From Alphaproteobacteria bacterium (lineage in GTDB: Bacteria; Pseudomonadota; Alphaproteobacteria; SMXQ01), in contig JAURLI010000025.1 of the NCBI GenBank assembly GCA_030831315.1, positions 1 through 51,889 of the forward strand: 51,889 nucleotides of DNA. Direction: 5' to 3'. The notes beneath the pieces were generated by a model. It did not search any database. It was not told where the DNA came from and was given only the letters and a program-made list of their open reading frames with translations. Below, piece by piece: positions 21,852 through 26,721 of the stretch (its first letter is position 1; each line of letters starts with the position of its first letter). The position numbers and the translations under genes are program-made.

Positions 21852-22231
21852 GCACGTCACGTAGGCTTTACTGTGCCGTAACCCGGACAGGGGGGCTTCG
21901 GCTGTTGATCGTATGGCTGGGCCGGCGCGTCGCGCGCGGCCTGTCCCGGCCGATTCAGGTTTGGGCATTGCTACCCGCCGAAGGGATAACTCGTTGTTTA
22001 GTACAGCCACCCCCAGACGACCGGAATTGGCTTCCATCGCAGTTGACGCAAATTCCAGTCGAACTGAATTAGCATTCTAAAGGTTTCGATTTACTTAAGG
22101 CTTGGGGCTGTCCTGTCCCGGGGAGACCCTGCAAAACCGGCAAAAATCCGTGTTTTTCGGGCTTCGAAGGGTTAAGACTCGGGGGCCGGGTGACAGCCGG
22201 CATTAGGCCGAAAAGCAGAGAGGGTGGGTTT
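21852..22231. other. Non-coding region between divergent genes
   Basis: I see no gene here. The GGDEF-EAL frame is open on the minus strand to 22037, but that sequence is Arg- and Pro-rich without family resemblance. On the plus strand a possible promoter, TTGACG (22044-22049), 17 bp, GAATTA, could serve the cinA-type gene; support is weak. Confidence 0.35.
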
Positions 22232-23020
22232 ATGCAGCAAGGATCGGACAGCGCCGGCGCGGCTGGCCGCATCTATACGGCGGCGCTGGTCATCATCGGC
22301 AACGAGGTCCTGTCCGGGCGCACCCAGGACGCGAATACCGCCTATCTGGCGACGCGCCTCAACGACCTTGGCATTCGCCTGATCGAGGTACGCATCGTAC
22401 GCGACGAATTCGACGCCATCGCGAAGGCGGTCAACGAACTGCGCGCGGCCTGCGATTACGTTTTCACGACCGGCGGCATCGGCCCCACCCATGACGACAT
22501 CACCGCGGAAGCGATCGCACGCGCCTTCGGCCGCAGGCTGCTTGAGCATCCCGAGGCGATCGCCCGCCTCGCGCGCCATTACGCGCACAGCGAATTTACC
22601 CCGGCGCGCCGGCGCATGGCCAACGTGCCCGACGGCGGTACGCTGATCGACAACCCGGTCAGCGCGGCCCCCGGTTTCAGGGTCGAAAATGTTTTCGTTT
22701 TCGCGGGCGTGCCCAAGATCATGCAGGGCATGTTCGAAAGCATCCGCCATGAACTGATTGGCGGCGCACCGCTTCTGGCACGCACCATTCGCACCAACCT
22801 TGCCGAAGGCCGCATCGCCGAGCCGCTCGGCGGCCTGCAGGACGATTTCCCCGATCTGGAAATCGGCAGCTATCCCCACTTCAACAAGCAGGGGTTGAGC
22901 GTGCGTCTGGTGCTGCGCGGCACGGACCCGGTTCGCCTGGGCGCGGCGGTGGACAGGCTTCGCGACATCATCGTTGCCCTTGGAGGGAGCGCCGAAGACG
23001 TGGATATCAGCGCGTCCTAG
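22232..23020 (+). CDS. CinA N-terminal/MoaB-like (molybdopterin-binding fold) protein
   Basis: A 262-residue protein of the competence/damage-inducible CinA family. It has only the MoCF-biosynthesis-type domain: 'ALVIIGNEVLSGRTQDANT' and 'TTGGIGPTHDDITAEAIAR', followed by a short C-terminal part. It lacks the C-terminal nicotinamide-nucleotide amidase domain. Alphaproteobacteria often carry this short form; the substrate is unknown. The ATG at 22232 follows AGAGAGGG. Its last four bases overlap the end of the convergent prophage repressor gene. Confidence 0.88.
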   Translation: MQQGSDSAGAAGRIYTAALVIIGNEVLSGRTQDANTAYLATRLNDLGIRLIEVRIVRDEFDAIAKAVNELRAACDYVFTTGGIGPTHDDITAEAIARAFGRRLLEHPEAIARLARHYAHSEFTPARRRMANVPDGGTLIDNPVSAAPGFRVENVFVFAGVPKIMQGMFESIRHELIGGAPLLARTIRTNLAEGRIAEPLGGLQDDFPDLEIGSYPHFNKQGLSVRLVLRGTDPVRLGAAVDRLRDIIVALGGSAEDVDISAS

Positions 23021-23670
23021 CCGCGGTAGCGGCGGTGTTCCACCATGGTGCCGACAATCCGGCCGGGATGCTCGGCATCGATCCGCAGTGACGGCCAGTC
23101 TTCGTTGAGCGGCACGAGTTCAATCACTGGACGGCCTGTGGCATCGATGCCGCGCGGCCGGTATTTCTTGAATGTGGCTTCGTCCGCATCGTCGAGCTTG
23201 GCGACGACGAAATCGCCGGGAACCGGTGTGATGTCGGGATCGACGATGATCTTGTCGCCGTCCTCGAACTCGGGCGCCATGCTTGTACCGCTGATGATGA
23301 GTCCGAATGCCGCGGATCCAAGATGCTGTTCGGTGATCAAAACATCCATGCCGCGCCCCGGCGGGTAGGGATCGGTTACGGCGCCCCAGGTGCCGGCAGC
23401 AACGGTGTCGATGACCGGAACCATGCGTCCGGGTGCGGGCGGCGGCGAAGAACCGCTTTCATTTTCACCGGTGAGCCAGCTTACCCACACGCCAAGGGCG
23501 TCGGCGGCCATCTGCAGATGCGCGAGGCTCGGCAGCGTGGTGCCGTTCTCCCATTGCGCAATGGCGGCGCGGCTGACGTGGCAGCGCCGCCCCAGAATCT
23601 CCTGGGTCATGCCCGCGCGATCTCGGGCGTCACGGATGCGGGATCCTATGCCTTCCATAATAGGGGCCAT
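23017..23670 (-). CDS. XRE-HTH/S24 peptidase phage-type repressor
   Basis: A 217-residue CI/LexA-like repressor. Residues about 6-65 form an XRE helix-turn-helix ('RIRDARDRAGMTQEILGRR' then 'VSRAAIAQWENGTTLP'). The C-terminal S24 domain has an Ala-Gly cleavage site in 'VAAGTWGA', Ser in 'SGTSMAPEFEDGD' and Lys in 'ATFKKYRP', so self-cleavage looks possible. Starts at 23688 (GTG), 23670 (ATG) and 23658 (ATG) are all possible; none has a good ribosome binding site. A palindrome just upstream is its likely operator. Its stop overlaps the stop of the cinA-type gene by four bases. Confidence 0.88.
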   Translation of the reverse strand: MAPIMEGIGSRIRDARDRAGMTQEILGRRCHVSRAAIAQWENGTTLPSLAHLQMAADALGVWVSWLTGENESGSSPPPAPGRMVPVIDTVAAGTWGAVTDPYPPGRGMDVLITEQHLGSAAFGLIISGTSMAPEFEDGDKIIVDPDITPVPGDFVVAKLDDADEATFKKYRPRGIDATGRPVIELVPLNEDWPSLRIDAEHPGRIVGTMVEHRRYRG

Positions 23671-23693
23671 GGCGTAAGTGTATACCACAATAT

Positions 23694-23708
23694 GTTAGAA
23701 AATCTAAC
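23694..23708. promoter_or_regulatory. Palindromic operator candidate
   Basis: Perfect GTTAGA-AAA-TCTAAC palindrome (15 bp) 24 bases upstream of the repressor ATG. A matching half-site, CGTTAG (23736-23741), lies inside the spacer of the rightward promoter. The arrangement fits a repressor controlling both its own gene and the early rightward gene. Confidence 0.65.
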
Positions 23709-23725
23709 GCTTGTCACGAAAAAAC

Positions 23726-23754
23726 TTGACCAAAACGTTAGTATTTATTACCAT
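23726..23754 (+). promoter_or_regulatory. Rightward early prophage promoter
   Basis: TTGACC (23726-23731), 17 bp spacer, TACCAT (23749-23754). The spacer contains the CGTTAG half-operator, so bound repressor would block it. It leads to the gene at 23792. Confidence 0.55.
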
Positions 23755-23791
23755 AGGGGCTTCCCTGATCATTCCGCGAGGCAGGTGAACA

Positions 23792-24292
23792 ATGTCAATC
23801 ATTGCAATTCAAGATTGTAATCTGGTTAATGGCTCGCCCGATGCGCCCGGCCATTTGTGGGCCGTGGACGAAGTAAAGGCGCGGCTGGCCGAGGCCGCCG
23901 CGGTTCTGCGTTTGCTCTCCCTGAGTGCCCGTGACAGACCGCTCCGACTGGTATCGCGTTGGCCCGATGTCGTGCGCCAGGGATTCGATGCCTACGGCTA
24001 TTCGGCGCCGCGCGTGGGGCCGCCGGCGCCTTCGCCCGCGGCGGTCAGCCGTGCCGATCAGGCCGTATTATGGCTTTTGTGGCTCGATGGCGAACAACGC
24101 CGGATCGTTTGGGCGCGGGCCGCGGGAGTAGCCTGGCGCCGCCTCGAAGACATGGATGGGCGTTCCCATACCACCTTGCGCCGGGTCGAGCGTGAGGCAA
24201 TTGATCTGGTCTGCCGCAAGCTCAATATGCAACTATCAAAAGAACAGGCGATTGCGGCAGCCTTCCGCCATGGCCAGGAAAATGATAAGTGA
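23792..24292 (+). CDS. DUF6362-like prophage protein, possible late-gene regulator
   Basis: A 166-residue protein. Residues about 25-100 resemble the DUF6362 pattern, with 'VKARLAEAAAVLRLL', 'SRWPDVVRQGFDAYGY' and 'PSPAAVSRADQAVLWLLWL'. The next part, 'RRIVWARAAGVAWRRLEDM', then 'GRSHTTLRRVEREAIDLV', reads like a helix-turn-helix of the sigma-region-4 kind. No function is established. It is expressed from a promoter with a repressor half-site. It ends four bases before a near-consensus promoter followed by a terminator, the position of antiterminator Q in lambda-like phages; that role is my inference. A GAGGCAGG ribosome binding site precedes the ATG. Confidence 0.65.
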   Translation: MSIIAIQDCNLVNGSPDAPGHLWAVDEVKARLAEAAAVLRLLSLSARDRPLRLVSRWPDVVRQGFDAYGYSAPRVGPPAPSPAAVSRADQAVLWLLWLDGEQRRIVWARAAGVAWRRLEDMDGRSHTTLRRVEREAIDLVCRKLNMQLSKEQAIAAAFRHGQENDK

Positions 24293-24295
24293 TAT

Positions 24296-24324
24296 TTGAC
24301 AAACTTTAAAAAAAGATGTAAAAT
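24296..24324 (+). promoter_or_regulatory. Near-consensus prophage promoter
   Basis: TTGACA (24296-24301), 17 bp spacer, TAAAAT (24319-24324), the best sigma-70-type match seen in the window. No gene starts between it and the terminator at 24378. Confidence 0.75.
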
Positions 24325-24330
24325 TTACTT

Positions 24331-24408
24331 AACAATGGGGAACGTCGCGTTTTGCAGTTTCCCTGCGAATTTTCCCCGAAAGGCCCGCCCGCGCGGGCCT
24401 TTCTTTTT
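24331..24408 (+). ncRNA. Candidate small RNA or lambda 6S-like late leader, about 78 nt
   Basis: The expected start is six or seven bases after the TAAAAT box and the end is the T-run of the terminator at 24408. No open frame with a ribosome binding site lies within. It could be a free small RNA or a terminated leader opened by antitermination to transcribe the terminase and lysis genes. Both ends are predicted only. Confidence 0.5.
24378..24408 (+). terminator. Strong intrinsic terminator before the terminase genes
   Basis: 11-bp stem GAAAGGCCCGC / GCGGGCCTTTC (24378-24388 with 24393-24403), four-base loop CCGC, then TTTTT. Confidence 0.88.
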
Positions 24409-24431
24409 GTCCAGTCACCGAGGAGGGCACC

Positions 24432-24725
24432 GTGGCCGCAAAGCCCGCGCGCAAGCGCGCCCGCAAAGACACTCCGCCCTCAGCCGATATCGATTCGGGC
24501 GCCGAACCGATTGCCTGCCGTCGCGCGCCGCTCGGCTGCGATCCCCTCGCGGTGATGGCATCCATCGCCAATGACGAAAGTGCCGATGCGCGCCTGCGTC
24601 TCGCGGCGGCAAAGGAACTCGCCGCTTACCTGGTATCGAAGCCGCGGGGCGCCGATGCGCCAGCAACTACCGTTGATGTCGGCGCGATCATCGCAGGGGG
24701 TGGTGACGGCGGAGATGCGACGTGA
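24432..24725 (+). CDS. Small-terminase-like prophage protein
   Basis: A 97-residue protein that starts at GTG 24432 after a GAGGAGGG ribosome binding site. It has a basic N-terminus, then 'CDPLAVMASIANDESADARL' followed by a helical 'AAAKELAAYL'. This 'DPL..M..I..D....RL.AAKE...Y' pattern occurs in small proteins placed directly before phage large terminases. It overlaps the terminase start by four bases (GTGA), supporting a joint role in DNA packaging. The assignment rests on position and weak resemblance. Confidence 0.55.
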   Translation: MAAKPARKRARKDTPPSADIDSGAEPIACRRAPLGCDPLAVMASIANDESADARLRLAAAKELAAYLVSKPRGADAPATTVDVGAIIAGGGDGGDAT

Positions 24726-24958
24726 ATATGCCCGAGGCCGAGCTTGCCCGCACCATTGCCGCCTGCCGCAACGACCCGCTCGCTTTCGTCGAACGGGTCT
24801 TTCCCTGGGGGCAGGGGCCGCTCGCGGCCGAGGCGGGGCCGGACCGCTGGCAGCGTGACCTGCTGGCCGGGCTGCGCGACGACATCGCCGCCGGCCGCGC
24901 GCCGTTGCGCTTGGCCGTCGCTTCCGGCCACGGCGTCGGCAAGACCGCGCTTTCGGCA
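24722..24958 (+). pseudogene. Large terminase, N-terminal fragment
   Basis: The first 79 or so residues of a phage large terminase. They show 'NDPLAFVERVFPWGQGPL', 'PDRWQRDLLAGLRDDIAAG' and the Walker A motif 'VASGHGVGKTALSA'. After this point (about 24958) the terminase sequence stops and an unrelated frame begins, so more than 80 percent of the gene is gone. The frame itself continues meaninglessly to 25222. The start is GTG 24722 or ATG 24728. A fragment ending just after Walker A cannot be an active packaging motor. Confidence 0.85.
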
Positions 24959-25044
24959 TATCCGTCAGTCCCGGCCAGATCGAGGCGGTTATCGCCGCGG
25001 GCATGGCCGCGGCGGGGCTGCTGGCCGCATTTACGAGGGACTGA
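24959..25044 (+). pseudogene. Holin-like gene, C-terminal fragment
   Basis: In the frame ending at the TGA 25042-25044 the residues include 'QIEAVIAAGMAAAGLLAAF', then 'TRD'. This is a hydrophobic end like those of small phage holins. It abuts the terminase fragment directly and overlaps the Rz-like start by a shared A (TGATG). It has no start of its own. Identity as holin is inferred from hydrophobicity and position before the spanins. Confidence 0.5.
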
Positions 25045-25253
25045 TGGCCGGGCTCTGGCTTGCCGCTTTGGCCTGTGTGCTCGCGGCGGCAGCCGTTTGG
25101 GCTGCCCAGCGGCTTGGCCGCGCCCGGGCGGAAAGGGATTTCCATGCGAAAACGAGCGATACCGCAAGACGATCGGTCGCCATCGAGGACGAGGTGGAGA
25201 GCCTGCCTGCTGGCGAGCTTGATCGCAGGCTGCACACCTTCCGGCGCAAGTGA
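25044..25253 (+). CDS. Rz-like inner-membrane spanin
   Basis: A 69-residue protein with one N-terminal membrane segment ('LWLAALACVLAAAAVWAAQ'), then a charged, probably helical periplasmic part with 'GRARAERDF' and 'EDEVESLPAGELDRRLHTF'. This is the build of a phage i-spanin, though short. Spanins join the inner and outer membranes during lysis. The start is coupled to the preceding stop (TGATG). The out-of-frame lipoprotein gene nested in its second half is the strongest support. Confidence 0.65.
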   Translation: MAGLWLAALACVLAAAAVWAAQRLGRARAERDFHAKTSDTARRSVAIEDEVESLPAGELDRRLHTFRRK

Positions 25254-25368
25254 CTGCGTCTGGGCGCGATCCATCATCCTAGACCCCGGCGACAGGCTGG
25301 CGGAGGCCTCAAAACGCCAGATTCTGGCCCACAACCTGAAGGTCCGCGAATTCTGCCGCCGGGAGTGA
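25144..25368 (+). CDS. Rz1-like outer-membrane lipoprotein spanin
   Basis: A 74-residue product in the +1 frame relative to the Rz-like gene, overlapping it by 110 bp. After a basic start (ATG 25144) it has a lipobox-type 'LLASLIAGC', so the Cys would be lipidated. The mature part has 'WARSIILDPGDRLAEASK' and 'QILAHNLKVREFC', a pattern common in small lysis lipoproteins of alphaproteobacterial phages. The stop (25366-25368) lies in the loop of the terminator hairpin. The nested Rz/Rz1 layout is classical for phage lysis cassettes. Confidence 0.7.
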   Translation: MRKRAIPQDDRSPSRTRWRACLLASLIAGCTPSGASDCVWARSIILDPGDRLAEASKRQILAHNLKVREFCRRE

Positions 25369-25385
25369 TCCCGGCGGCTTTTTTT
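25355..25385 (+). terminator. Intrinsic terminator of the prophage lysis genes
   Basis: 10-bp perfect stem GCCGCCGGGA / TCCCGGCGGC (25355-25378), loop GTGA, then seven T (25379-25385). The loop contains the last bases of the Rz1-like coding sequence. Confidence 0.9.
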
Positions 25386-25461
25386 CGTTGGTGCGGCGGG
25401 ATTGCATCAGGGAGCCAAACTTCCCATTATTCTGGCCGGAATACAGGCAGGGGGAACCGCG

Positions 25462-25851
25462 GTGGTGGACGGACCGAAGATTGCGCGCAACAAATGGCCT
25501 GAAAACCCAGGCTACGAGCTGACGGTGACGCCGTTCGAGGGGCGCGTACGCGTGCGATTTGCCGGCGCGACGGTTGCAGACAGCCGTTCCGCGCTGCTTC
25601 TTCTCGAGCAGGGACACAGCCCGGTCTATTACCTGCCGCGGCAGGACTTGCGCATGGAACTGCTGCGCCCGAGCGAGCACAGGAGCCATTGTCCCTACAA
25701 GGGACATTGCTCCTACTATTCGATCGTCGTCGGCGACAAGGTTTCTGAAAACGCCATCTGGAGCTACGAAGATCCGTATCCGGAAATTCGCGAAATCACC
25801 GGTCTGGTGGCTTTTTATCCGAACCGCGTCGACGCCATCGACGTAGAATGA
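25462..25851 (+). CDS. DUF427 domain protein
   Basis: A 129-residue single-domain protein of the DUF427 family. It shows 'YELTVTPFEGRVRVRFAG', 'YYLPRQDLRMELLRPSEH', the conserved 'CPYKGHCSYYSI' and 'WSYEDPYPEIREITGLVAFY'. The family is widespread and has no established reaction. I chose the GTG at 25462 (or 25465), after AGGGGGA; an in-frame TTG 60 bp upstream adds a tail foreign to the family. It is the first non-phage gene after the prophage remnant. Confidence 0.85.
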   Translation: MVDGPKIARNKWPENPGYELTVTPFEGRVRVRFAGATVADSRSALLLLEQGHSPVYYLPRQDLRMELLRPSEHRSHCPYKGHCSYYSIVVGDKVSENAIWSYEDPYPEIREITGLVAFYPNRVDAIDVE

Positions 25852-25902
25852 ACTGAATTTATCAACCGATCCGGGAAAACCGGTTTTTTTCAGGGGGAAG
25901 TC

Positions 25903-26721
25903 ATGAGTGCGCCAAGCGGCAAGGACATCGTTACCGAAAACATCACCTGTGCGGGTGGAATGCCCGCCTTCGTTGCCCGTCCGAAAGCCGGGGGAAGCCA
26001 TCCCTGCATCGTGCTGATGCATGAACGCTACGGCCTCGTGCAGCATACGAAGGATCTCGCAGCCCGTTTCGCGGGCGATGGCTATGTCTGCATCGCTCCC
26101 GATGTATTCTTCCGTCATCCGGACCAGGACGGCCTGCATCGGGGCGACGACCGTTGCGACATTACCGACGACGACGCCATTCGTGACCTGTCGGCGGCGA
26201 TCGATGCGTTGGGCGGTATTTCCGGGGCCGATGCAAAACGCGTTGCGGTCAAGGGTGTCTGCCAGACCGGCCGCCATCCTTTGGTGCTGGCGGCGGTGCG
26301 GCCGATCTCGGCGGCGCTTGTCTGGTATGGCGCAGCGTCCAAGCGCGAATGGGACACCAACAAATTGCAGCCGCGTCCGCTGACCGATGTTATCCGCGAC
26401 GTGCCGTGCCCGGTGTTCGGTTCCTTCGGCGAAGCGGATCACATCATTTCCCTCGACGATGTGCGGCGGTTCCGCAACTGCCTCGAAGACCACAAGAAGT
26501 CGTACGAAATTCACGTTTTCAAGGACGCTCCGCACGGCTGGCTGAACGACACGATGCCGGGCCGTTACCGGCGCGAGCAGGCCGAGGCAGGCTGGGCGGC
26601 GCAGCTCAAGTTCCTGTCCTGGGTCTTCGATCCCAATCGTGACAAGAACGCCATAACCTGGAAGTACGAATGCGCATCGCGGCCCGATTACGACTTCTCC
26701 AAGAACGTGCGACTGGAATAG
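25903..26721 (+). CDS. Dienelactone hydrolase family protein
   Basis: A 272-residue alpha/beta-hydrolase. The presumed triad is Cys in 'VAVKGVCQTGRHPLVLA' (the family usually has G-x-C-x-G-G), Asp in 'GSFGEADHII' and His in 'FKDAPHGWLND'. The family hydrolyses dienelactones or related esters. The nucleophile-elbow change (GRH in place of GG) makes the true substrate doubtful. The start ATG follows an AGGGGGAAG ribosome binding site. A weak hairpin with a T-run at about 25864-25890 lies between it and DUF427. Confidence 0.8.
   Translation: MSAPSGKDIVTENITCAGGMPAFVARPKAGGSHPCIVLMHERYGLVQHTKDLAARFAGDGYVCIAPDVFFRHPDQDGLHRGDDRCDITDDDAIRDLSAAIDALGGISGADAKRVAVKGVCQTGRHPLVLAAVRPISAALVWYGAASKREWDTNKLQPRPLTDVIRDVPCPVFGSFGEADHIISLDDVRRFRNCLEDHKKSYEIHVFKDAPHGWLNDTMPGRYRREQAEAGWAAQLKFLSWVFDPNRDKNAITWKYECASRPDYDFSKNVRLE

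Follow-up and report, generated by a model that had tools for sequence, protein, structure and literature searches.

DUF6362 as a proposed family of Q-type late-gene antiterminators in alphaproteobacterial phages and prophage-derived clusters

What does a gene of the DUF6362 family control when it stands directly before a strong promoter, a terminator and phage packaging and lysis genes? This arrangement occurs in the stretch of alphaproteobacterial DNA analysed here (the window, 51,889 nucleotides), and the first-pass annotation likened it to the order of Q, pR', tR' and late genes in lambda, proposing that DUF6362 proteins may act as late-gene antiterminators or activators. No mention of DUF6362 was found in the literature searched.

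The genes belong to a prophage remnant of ∼2.4 kb (23017-25385), located between a cinA-like host gene that ends at 23020 and a DUF427 gene that starts at about 25402. The machinery is carried by an eroded prophage in which nearly all structural genes are gone, and its parts are, in order:

23017..23688, minus strand: S24-type phage repressor (CI/LexA-like, HTH plus S24 peptidase; HTH_3 and Peptidase_S24 matches), divergent from DUF6362
23689..23791, unstranded: control region separating the divergent repressor and DUF6362 genes, with a TTGACC-17-TACCAT promoter and inverted CTAACG/CGTTAG motifs as putative operators
23792..24292, plus strand: DUF6362 protein, 166 aa (PF19889, E=1e-25; phrog_6836, E=2e-30), proposed Q-type late-gene antiterminator
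24296..24301, plus strand: -35 element TTGACA
24302..24318, plus strand: 17-nt spacer AACTTTAAAAAAAGATG (clade-conserved form nnnTTTATAAAATCGGC), conserved by information content; candidate binding element and QBE counterpart
24319..24324, plus strand: -10 element TAAAAT
24331..24339, plus strand: -10-like AACAAT at predicted +1..+6, then GGG; predicted sigma-dependent pause element
24346..24347, plus strand: predicted pause position, C at +16 and G at +17 (letters identical in lambda pR')
24378..24408, plus strand: intrinsic terminator, counterpart of lambda tR' (11-bp stem, T5)
24432..24725, plus strand: terminase small subunit-like ORF (TerS), 97 aa (phrog_641, E=2e-5)
24722..24958, plus strand: TerL N-terminal fragment, first 79 codons, ending just behind the Walker A motif (GHGVGKTALSA)
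24959..25044, plus strand: deletion junction with a C-terminal piece of a further, putative phage gene (ending in SVSPGQIEAVIAAGMAAAGLLAAFTRD and a stop), read from sequence
25044..25253, plus strand: Rz-like spanin (phrog_1026, E=1e-3)
25144..25368, plus strand: Rz1-like spanin, overlapping Rz (phrog_1275, E=1e-9; start codon chosen by eye)
25355..25385, plus strand: terminator at the end of the remnant late operon

The window protein scores 90 bits against PF19889 (DUF6362), exceeding the curated cut-off of 31 bits. All coordinates in the first-pass annotation hold, with DUF6362 ending at 24292 and TTGACA beginning at 24296, and so does its ranking of the promoter (TTGACA-17 nt-TAAAAT) as the best in the window: this is the sole 11/12 site on both strands, followed by sites at 10/12, and a promoter matrix built without the window scored 23.5 at 24296 and 6.2 at the window's next place. 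A strong terminator had also been placed close behind the promoter, and its stem (24378-24403; 11 pairs, 8 of them GC, dG -20.9, plus T5) starts 54 nt past the -10, in a region that folds at z=-3.15, above chance. The claim that terminase and lysis genes follow stands for TerS and Rz/Rz1, but they form a remnant only; TerL is cut, its fragment aligning by eye with the start of a 484-aa TerL of the same genus, and no endolysin was recognised among the remnant late genes of the window. At the deletion junction, TerL codon 79 is fused to the tail end of the other gene, just before Rz. Two parts had gone unremarked, namely the divergent S24 repressor, whose position is kept in other genomes of the window's family, and the -10-like AACAAT-GGG, the hallmark cis element of lambda Q-type promoters.

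Across the family, PF19889 matches were found in 66 of the 385 alphaproteobacterial genomes sampled compared with 0 of 14 control genomes, and DUF6362 is also present in hundreds of viral contigs (IMG/VR). Additional loci came from two orders, IMG/VR and cultured Rhodobacter phages (the G107 order search duplicated the G380 order search). There are two main clades, distinguished by their HTH, which reads WRRLEDMDGRSHvTLRK in clade A, to which the window protein belongs, and WKxICWxxGxxRxxAxxxW in clade B. When cultured phages were searched by tblastn, the window protein found no match, and the only matches to two other DUF6362 members were in Rhodobacter RcC phages and in a single record that lacks annotation. 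A distant DUF6362-like gene is the last gene in these cultured RcC phages and adjoins the genome end, with the terminase at the opposite end; genomes of RcBaka's cluster (Rhodobacter RcC phages) end with an 11-base overhang (PMC8601537). Several DUF6362 genes have no phage genes behind them (L070 and L072, in G266 and G042; L076, L078 and L080, in G260, G162 and G033), and in one group of such solo genes the next gene is response regulator-like. These solo members perhaps have a role other than phage late control.

Because plain -35/-10 scoring missed several sites, clade A promoters were sought with an unsupervised, gapless motif search of 38 dereplicated regions 3' of the gene. One motif emerged with a log-likelihood of 616, compared with 133-167 in five shuffled sets; it was missing in 15 of the 38 clade A-like regions, several of which have no phage genes behind. 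Alignment from the -35 of 23 sites (22 from the motif search, plus L079 found by eye) gave the consensus TTtACA-nnnTTTATAAAATcGGc-TAAAan-nnnnnn-nAnnnT-yGG. The 17-nt spacer length is conserved across these 23 dereplicated loci, and the spacer is conserved to about the same degree as the hexamers, which is unusual for an ordinary sigma-70 promoter. Positions -6 to -1 are free to vary, while A+2 and T+6 are fixed in 22 of 23 sites and GG is found at +8,+9 in 18. The resulting NANNNT at +1..+6 is present in 22/23 clade A sites and in 32/33 clade B sites, whereas the same A/T pair occurs only 0-5 times, mostly 0-3, at other offsets 3' of the -10, and NANNNT was found in 13 (6.7%) of 195 further promoter-like sites from these loci, one of them with GG. 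From this pattern we predict that NANNNT serves each clade as a sigma-dependent pause element. G-10/Y-1 G+1, the pause consensus, occurs most often at +17 in clade A (10/23) and at +18 in clade B (20/33).

The promoter is tied closely to its gene. When the pattern TTTACANNNTTTATAAAATNGGNTA was searched in 36 genomes of one order, 10 of 10 matches with one mismatch or fewer lay directly after DUF6362, as did 5 of 7 with two mismatches. Genomes lacking a clade A DUF6362 gave weaker matches only, mostly where the reversed control pattern matches too. In the window's order, a pattern search covering 11 genomes found a single copy of the promoter in each of 3, always behind DUF6362 (3/3). Elsewhere, behind a second copy of a DUF6362-type promoter (L341:3330-3450; G399:C8:3336), come a terminator and an unclassified ORF (MAFANKSGDKFAHYRDIK...); DUF6362 is not on the 4.3-kb contig that carries this copy, and the copy may be a second site on which the regulator acts.

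In clade B, the 33 dereplicated loci, taken from genomes as well as viral contigs, share the pattern nGGACA-17-TAGGTT-n6-TATCCT-CGGGAGAGG. The -35 is weak (CGGACA), and in most loci GACA repeats spaced 15 bp apart lie at and upstream of it, the last one overlapping the -35; a TGTCCG-CGGACA palindrome adjoins the -35 in 22 of the 33. The two clades thus have the pause element in common but diverge, together with their HTHs, in the remainder of the promoter, which fits the idea that DUF6362 reads this remainder. A conserved GGTCCTTCC..TATGC element on the 3' side in clade B was considered as part of the promoter and dropped; it matches the joined genome ends of RcBaka, and by this match it is a cos site, located behind the promoter in many loci. 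The element, GGTCCTTCCTGG...TATGC/GGGCGGGC...GCGCGG, is found 3' of clade B DUF6362 in, for example, L055, L046 and L244 (RcBaka is L217 and L218).

Terminators were evaluated by folding and T-tract, which superseded a crude stem counter, requiring a hairpin with a dG of -10 or better and a T-tract directly behind it within +1..+185. Clade A loci carried such a terminator in 14 of 22 cases (shuffle mean 1.9, max 5), and in clade B there was no clear enrichment, with 7 of 33 loci (shuffle mean 2.6, max 7). The counts therefore establish the promoter-terminator pair for clade A only, and the survey proposed in the first-pass annotation, of DUF6362 genes in general for such a pair, bears out its expectation in clade A (23 promoter loci, 14/22 terminators) but not clearly in clade B. 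The genes downstream in clade A encode TerS (phrog_4044, phrog_641) and TerL.

How closely does this promoter resemble the one that lambda Q acts on? A 46-nt matrix built from the 23 clade A sites was used to scan the lambda genome on both strands; pR' ranked first with a score of 8.9, and the second place scored 0.5. No gaps are needed to set pR' beside a clade A site (L114), or the lambda spacer beside that of the window:

lambda pR': TTGACT-TATTGAATAAAATTGGG-TAAATT-TGACTC-AACGAT-GGG
L114: TTTACA-AACTTTATAAAATCGGC-TAAATA-CTATCC-TACAGT-CGG
lambda spacer: ATAAAATTGGG
window spacer: ATAAAATCGGC

With a 44-nt motif that includes the upstream A-tract, pR' dropped to fourth place on the lambda plus strand, which limits the likeness to -35..+9. 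Lambda pauses at +16/+17, and it has a -35-like sequence for the loading of Q. The shared layout comprises a regulator gene, a strong promoter just behind it, a -10-like element at +1..+6 followed by GGG, a terminator and late genes; the two differ in that lysis genes come first in lambda whereas TerS/TerL come first here, and in that lambda Q belongs to PF03589, while none of 32 DUF6362 members has an Antiterm domain match. Q-type systems require both an element in the spacer from -35 to -10 and a -10-like sequence at which sigma-dependent pausing occurs (PMC6606751).

Two other systems are also comparable. In AlpR-AlpA of Pseudomonas aeruginosa, a self-cleaving repressor is paired with a small antiterminator with a C-terminal HTH, and a promoter with a binding element and a -10-like CACGAT is followed by a terminator and lysis genes, the same order as in the window remnant (PMC9371919). 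Changing the A or T of this -10-like sequence hurts antitermination (PMC9371919); the comparison is one of layout, and the AlpA element differs in lying at -1..+5. GafZ of the Caulobacter gene transfer agent is an antiterminator with a sigma-like HTH, and it resembles DUF6362 in being alphaproteobacterial and in having its binding element between -10 and -35, before a phage-derived cluster (PMC11150451). Compared by description, it differs in working with GafY and IHF, on a GCGCCCG-CTGGCGC palindrome.

The structural comparison points to a second Q family, that of phage 21. The AlphaFold (AF2) model of the window protein, built from eight sequences (pLDDT 76, pTM 0.65), has six helices, with low-confidence stretches near helix 2, and comprises a helix at 25-45, a flexible middle, a sigma-region-4-like HTH at 100-122 and a long C-terminal helix. 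21Q likewise has six helices and a sigma-region-4-like HTH, and its detachable helix 2 forms a ring at the RNA exit (PMC6606751). In a VIA-align comparison with 777 solved chains, the top four rows were all Q21 (Z 8.9-9.3, 108-116 residues, 8-9% identity; best Z 9.3 over 116 residues), with alignments that span the window protein from residue 23, and sigma region 4 structures ranked next, covering about 56-82 residues; a Z of 9 is not decisive for helical proteins. Foldseek alone gave no E below 0.001 for the window model, and in a clade B model Q21 (Z 7.6, 99 residues) tied with sigma region 4. The likeness to Q21/PF06530 in predicted fold thus consists of an N-terminal helix on a sigma-region-4-like HTH, six helices and a flexible middle, while identity is 8-10%, and the TGAGCA direct repeats that Q21 binds at about -21 and -13 have no counterpart found at DUF6362 promoters.

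Sequence profiles place DUF6362 less clearly. None of 32 DUF6362 members matched the Antiterm domain of lambda Q (PF03589) or the Phage_antitermQ domain of Q21 (PF06530) at E<=1, and a sequence search of the PDB gave nothing beyond a weak archaeal HTH (E 0.9). Weak matches to HTH and sigma-70 region 4 families were seen (Sigma70_r4_2, E 5e-5). Comparison of DUF6362 with PF06530 by hhalign gave a probability of 59 or of 4, depending on the alignment used, leaving sequence homology to Q21 unproven. Near-identity made the lambda Q relatives in IMG/VR unusable for a profile, and promoters after PF06530 genes, intended as a positive control, were of another type and gave no clear answer. The claim that DUF6362 is a member of a known Q family is weaker than the claim that it works like Q, as the sequence profiles of those families do not match it.

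Taken together, the gene order, the lambda-like spacer, the pause element, the clade A terminator, the near-exclusive link between promoter and gene, and the Q21-like predicted fold, all read from sequence along with the conserved promoter and its downstream genes, make antitermination the best explanation. We consider it likely (probability about 0.8, counting in a mixture of activation and antitermination) that the DUF6362 proteins of alphaproteobacterial phages and prophage-derived clusters form a family of Q-type late-gene antiterminators that load at a sigma-dependent pause. The original proposal of a lambda Q-like layout with DUF6362 as antiterminator thereby gains support from the promoter, the pause element, the pR' ranking and the structural match to Q21. 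We infer the following sequence of events. The phage repressor would keep the DUF6362 gene off until induction, upon which DUF6362 would be made. RNA polymerase would start at the promoter just behind the gene and pause after about 16-18 nt, when sigma rebinds the -10-like NANNNT-nGG at +1..+6; in the window's clade, the terminator behind the promoter would then halt it if DUF6362 were absent. The protein would bind conserved DNA in or beside the promoter, which may be the ATAAAATCGG spacer in the window's clade and is probably the GACA repeats around the -35 in clade B, and load on the paused polymerase at the RNA exit, allowing read-through into terminase, head, tail and lysis genes.

The main rival is activation, in which DUF6362, as a sigma-region-4-like protein, would bind beside the -35 and recruit RNA polymerase, and the terminator and the -10-like element would be incidental. 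ArpU/RinA-type regulators are thought to be late-promoter activators. The weak Sigma70_r4_2 matches and the predicted HTH are consistent with such a role, as is the precedent of GafA/GafY of gene transfer agents, which are activators (PMC11150451), and activation is likeliest in clade B, given its poor -35 with GACA repeats and a palindrome beside it and its lack of clearly enriched terminators. However, the window-clade promoter is near consensus, so that an activator should be unnecessary, sigma-like HTHs are present in the antiterminators 21Q and GafZ too, and activation leaves unexplained both NANNNT-nGG at +1..+6 in the two clades and a terminator before the first late gene. We therefore regard activation by itself as unlikely. 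A variant that falls within antitermination combines both roles: DUF6362 would activate initiation from a site at the -35 and then travel as an antiterminator; activation would weigh more in clade B, antitermination in clade A. GafYZ combines the two on the Caulobacter gene transfer agent (PMC11150451), and the sharing of one pause element by clades with different promoter motifs and HTH sequences would fit, but clade A shows no direct sign of activation, and the combination seems to us possible rather than probable. Finally, it might be by chance or descent that the gene is followed, in a handful of related prophages, by a housekeeping-type promoter and a read-through terminator, and many clade A loci are indeed related by descent. 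This is very improbable, since the clade A motif lies far above shuffles, positions -6 to -1 vary whereas +2, +6 and +8 are fixed, the pause element recurs in the distant clade B, and pR' is the top match in lambda.

Besides the antiterminator reading, the loci raise the possibility that the regulator has outlived its phages. The repressor and DUF6362 stand divergently at one chromosomal site in several genera of the window's family, while the phage remainder varies:

22190-25903 of the window
G390:C14:32190-43518, TerS and TerL intact
G386:C151:6123-9368, these two genes only
G113:C6

For both genes dN is well below dS, with dS near saturation, and the pair is possibly domesticated, like AlpR-AlpA. 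DUF6362 also heads two compact clusters of ∼20 kb:

G406:C1:1924242-1944250 (L379-L381), with an S24 repressor too
G380:C1:about 1892800-1910900 (L382-L384)

These clusters encode TerS, TerL, a DUF4055/phrog_145 portal, a P22-like coat, tail tube and tape measure (annotated in G406) and are flanked by housekeeping genes; neither an integrase nor a replication gene was recognised among their ORFs. Judged by gene content, the clusters, which come from an order with Thalassobaculum-like members, resemble gene transfer agents. From the site kept in several genera as the prophage erodes, and from the position of DUF6362 at the head of these clusters, we raise as a tentative idea that DUF6362 and the S24 repressor make up a long-lived domesticated control module, and that such clusters would be run in Q fashion at a pR'-matching promoter by a protein not recognisably related to Q by sequence.

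These results offer a testable function for a family so far listed as a domain of unknown function. If the antiterminator reading is true, the lambda late switch, studied for decades in phages of E. coli, runs in alphaproteobacteria as well, and it does so with a protein that sequence profiles do not recognise as Q, at a promoter that is nevertheless close to lambda pR' in spacer, -10 and pause element. This bears on whether the constraint on such promoters stems from RNA polymerase and sigma and not from the antiterminator, and it would provide a handle on how phage-derived clusters are switched on in alphaproteobacteria.
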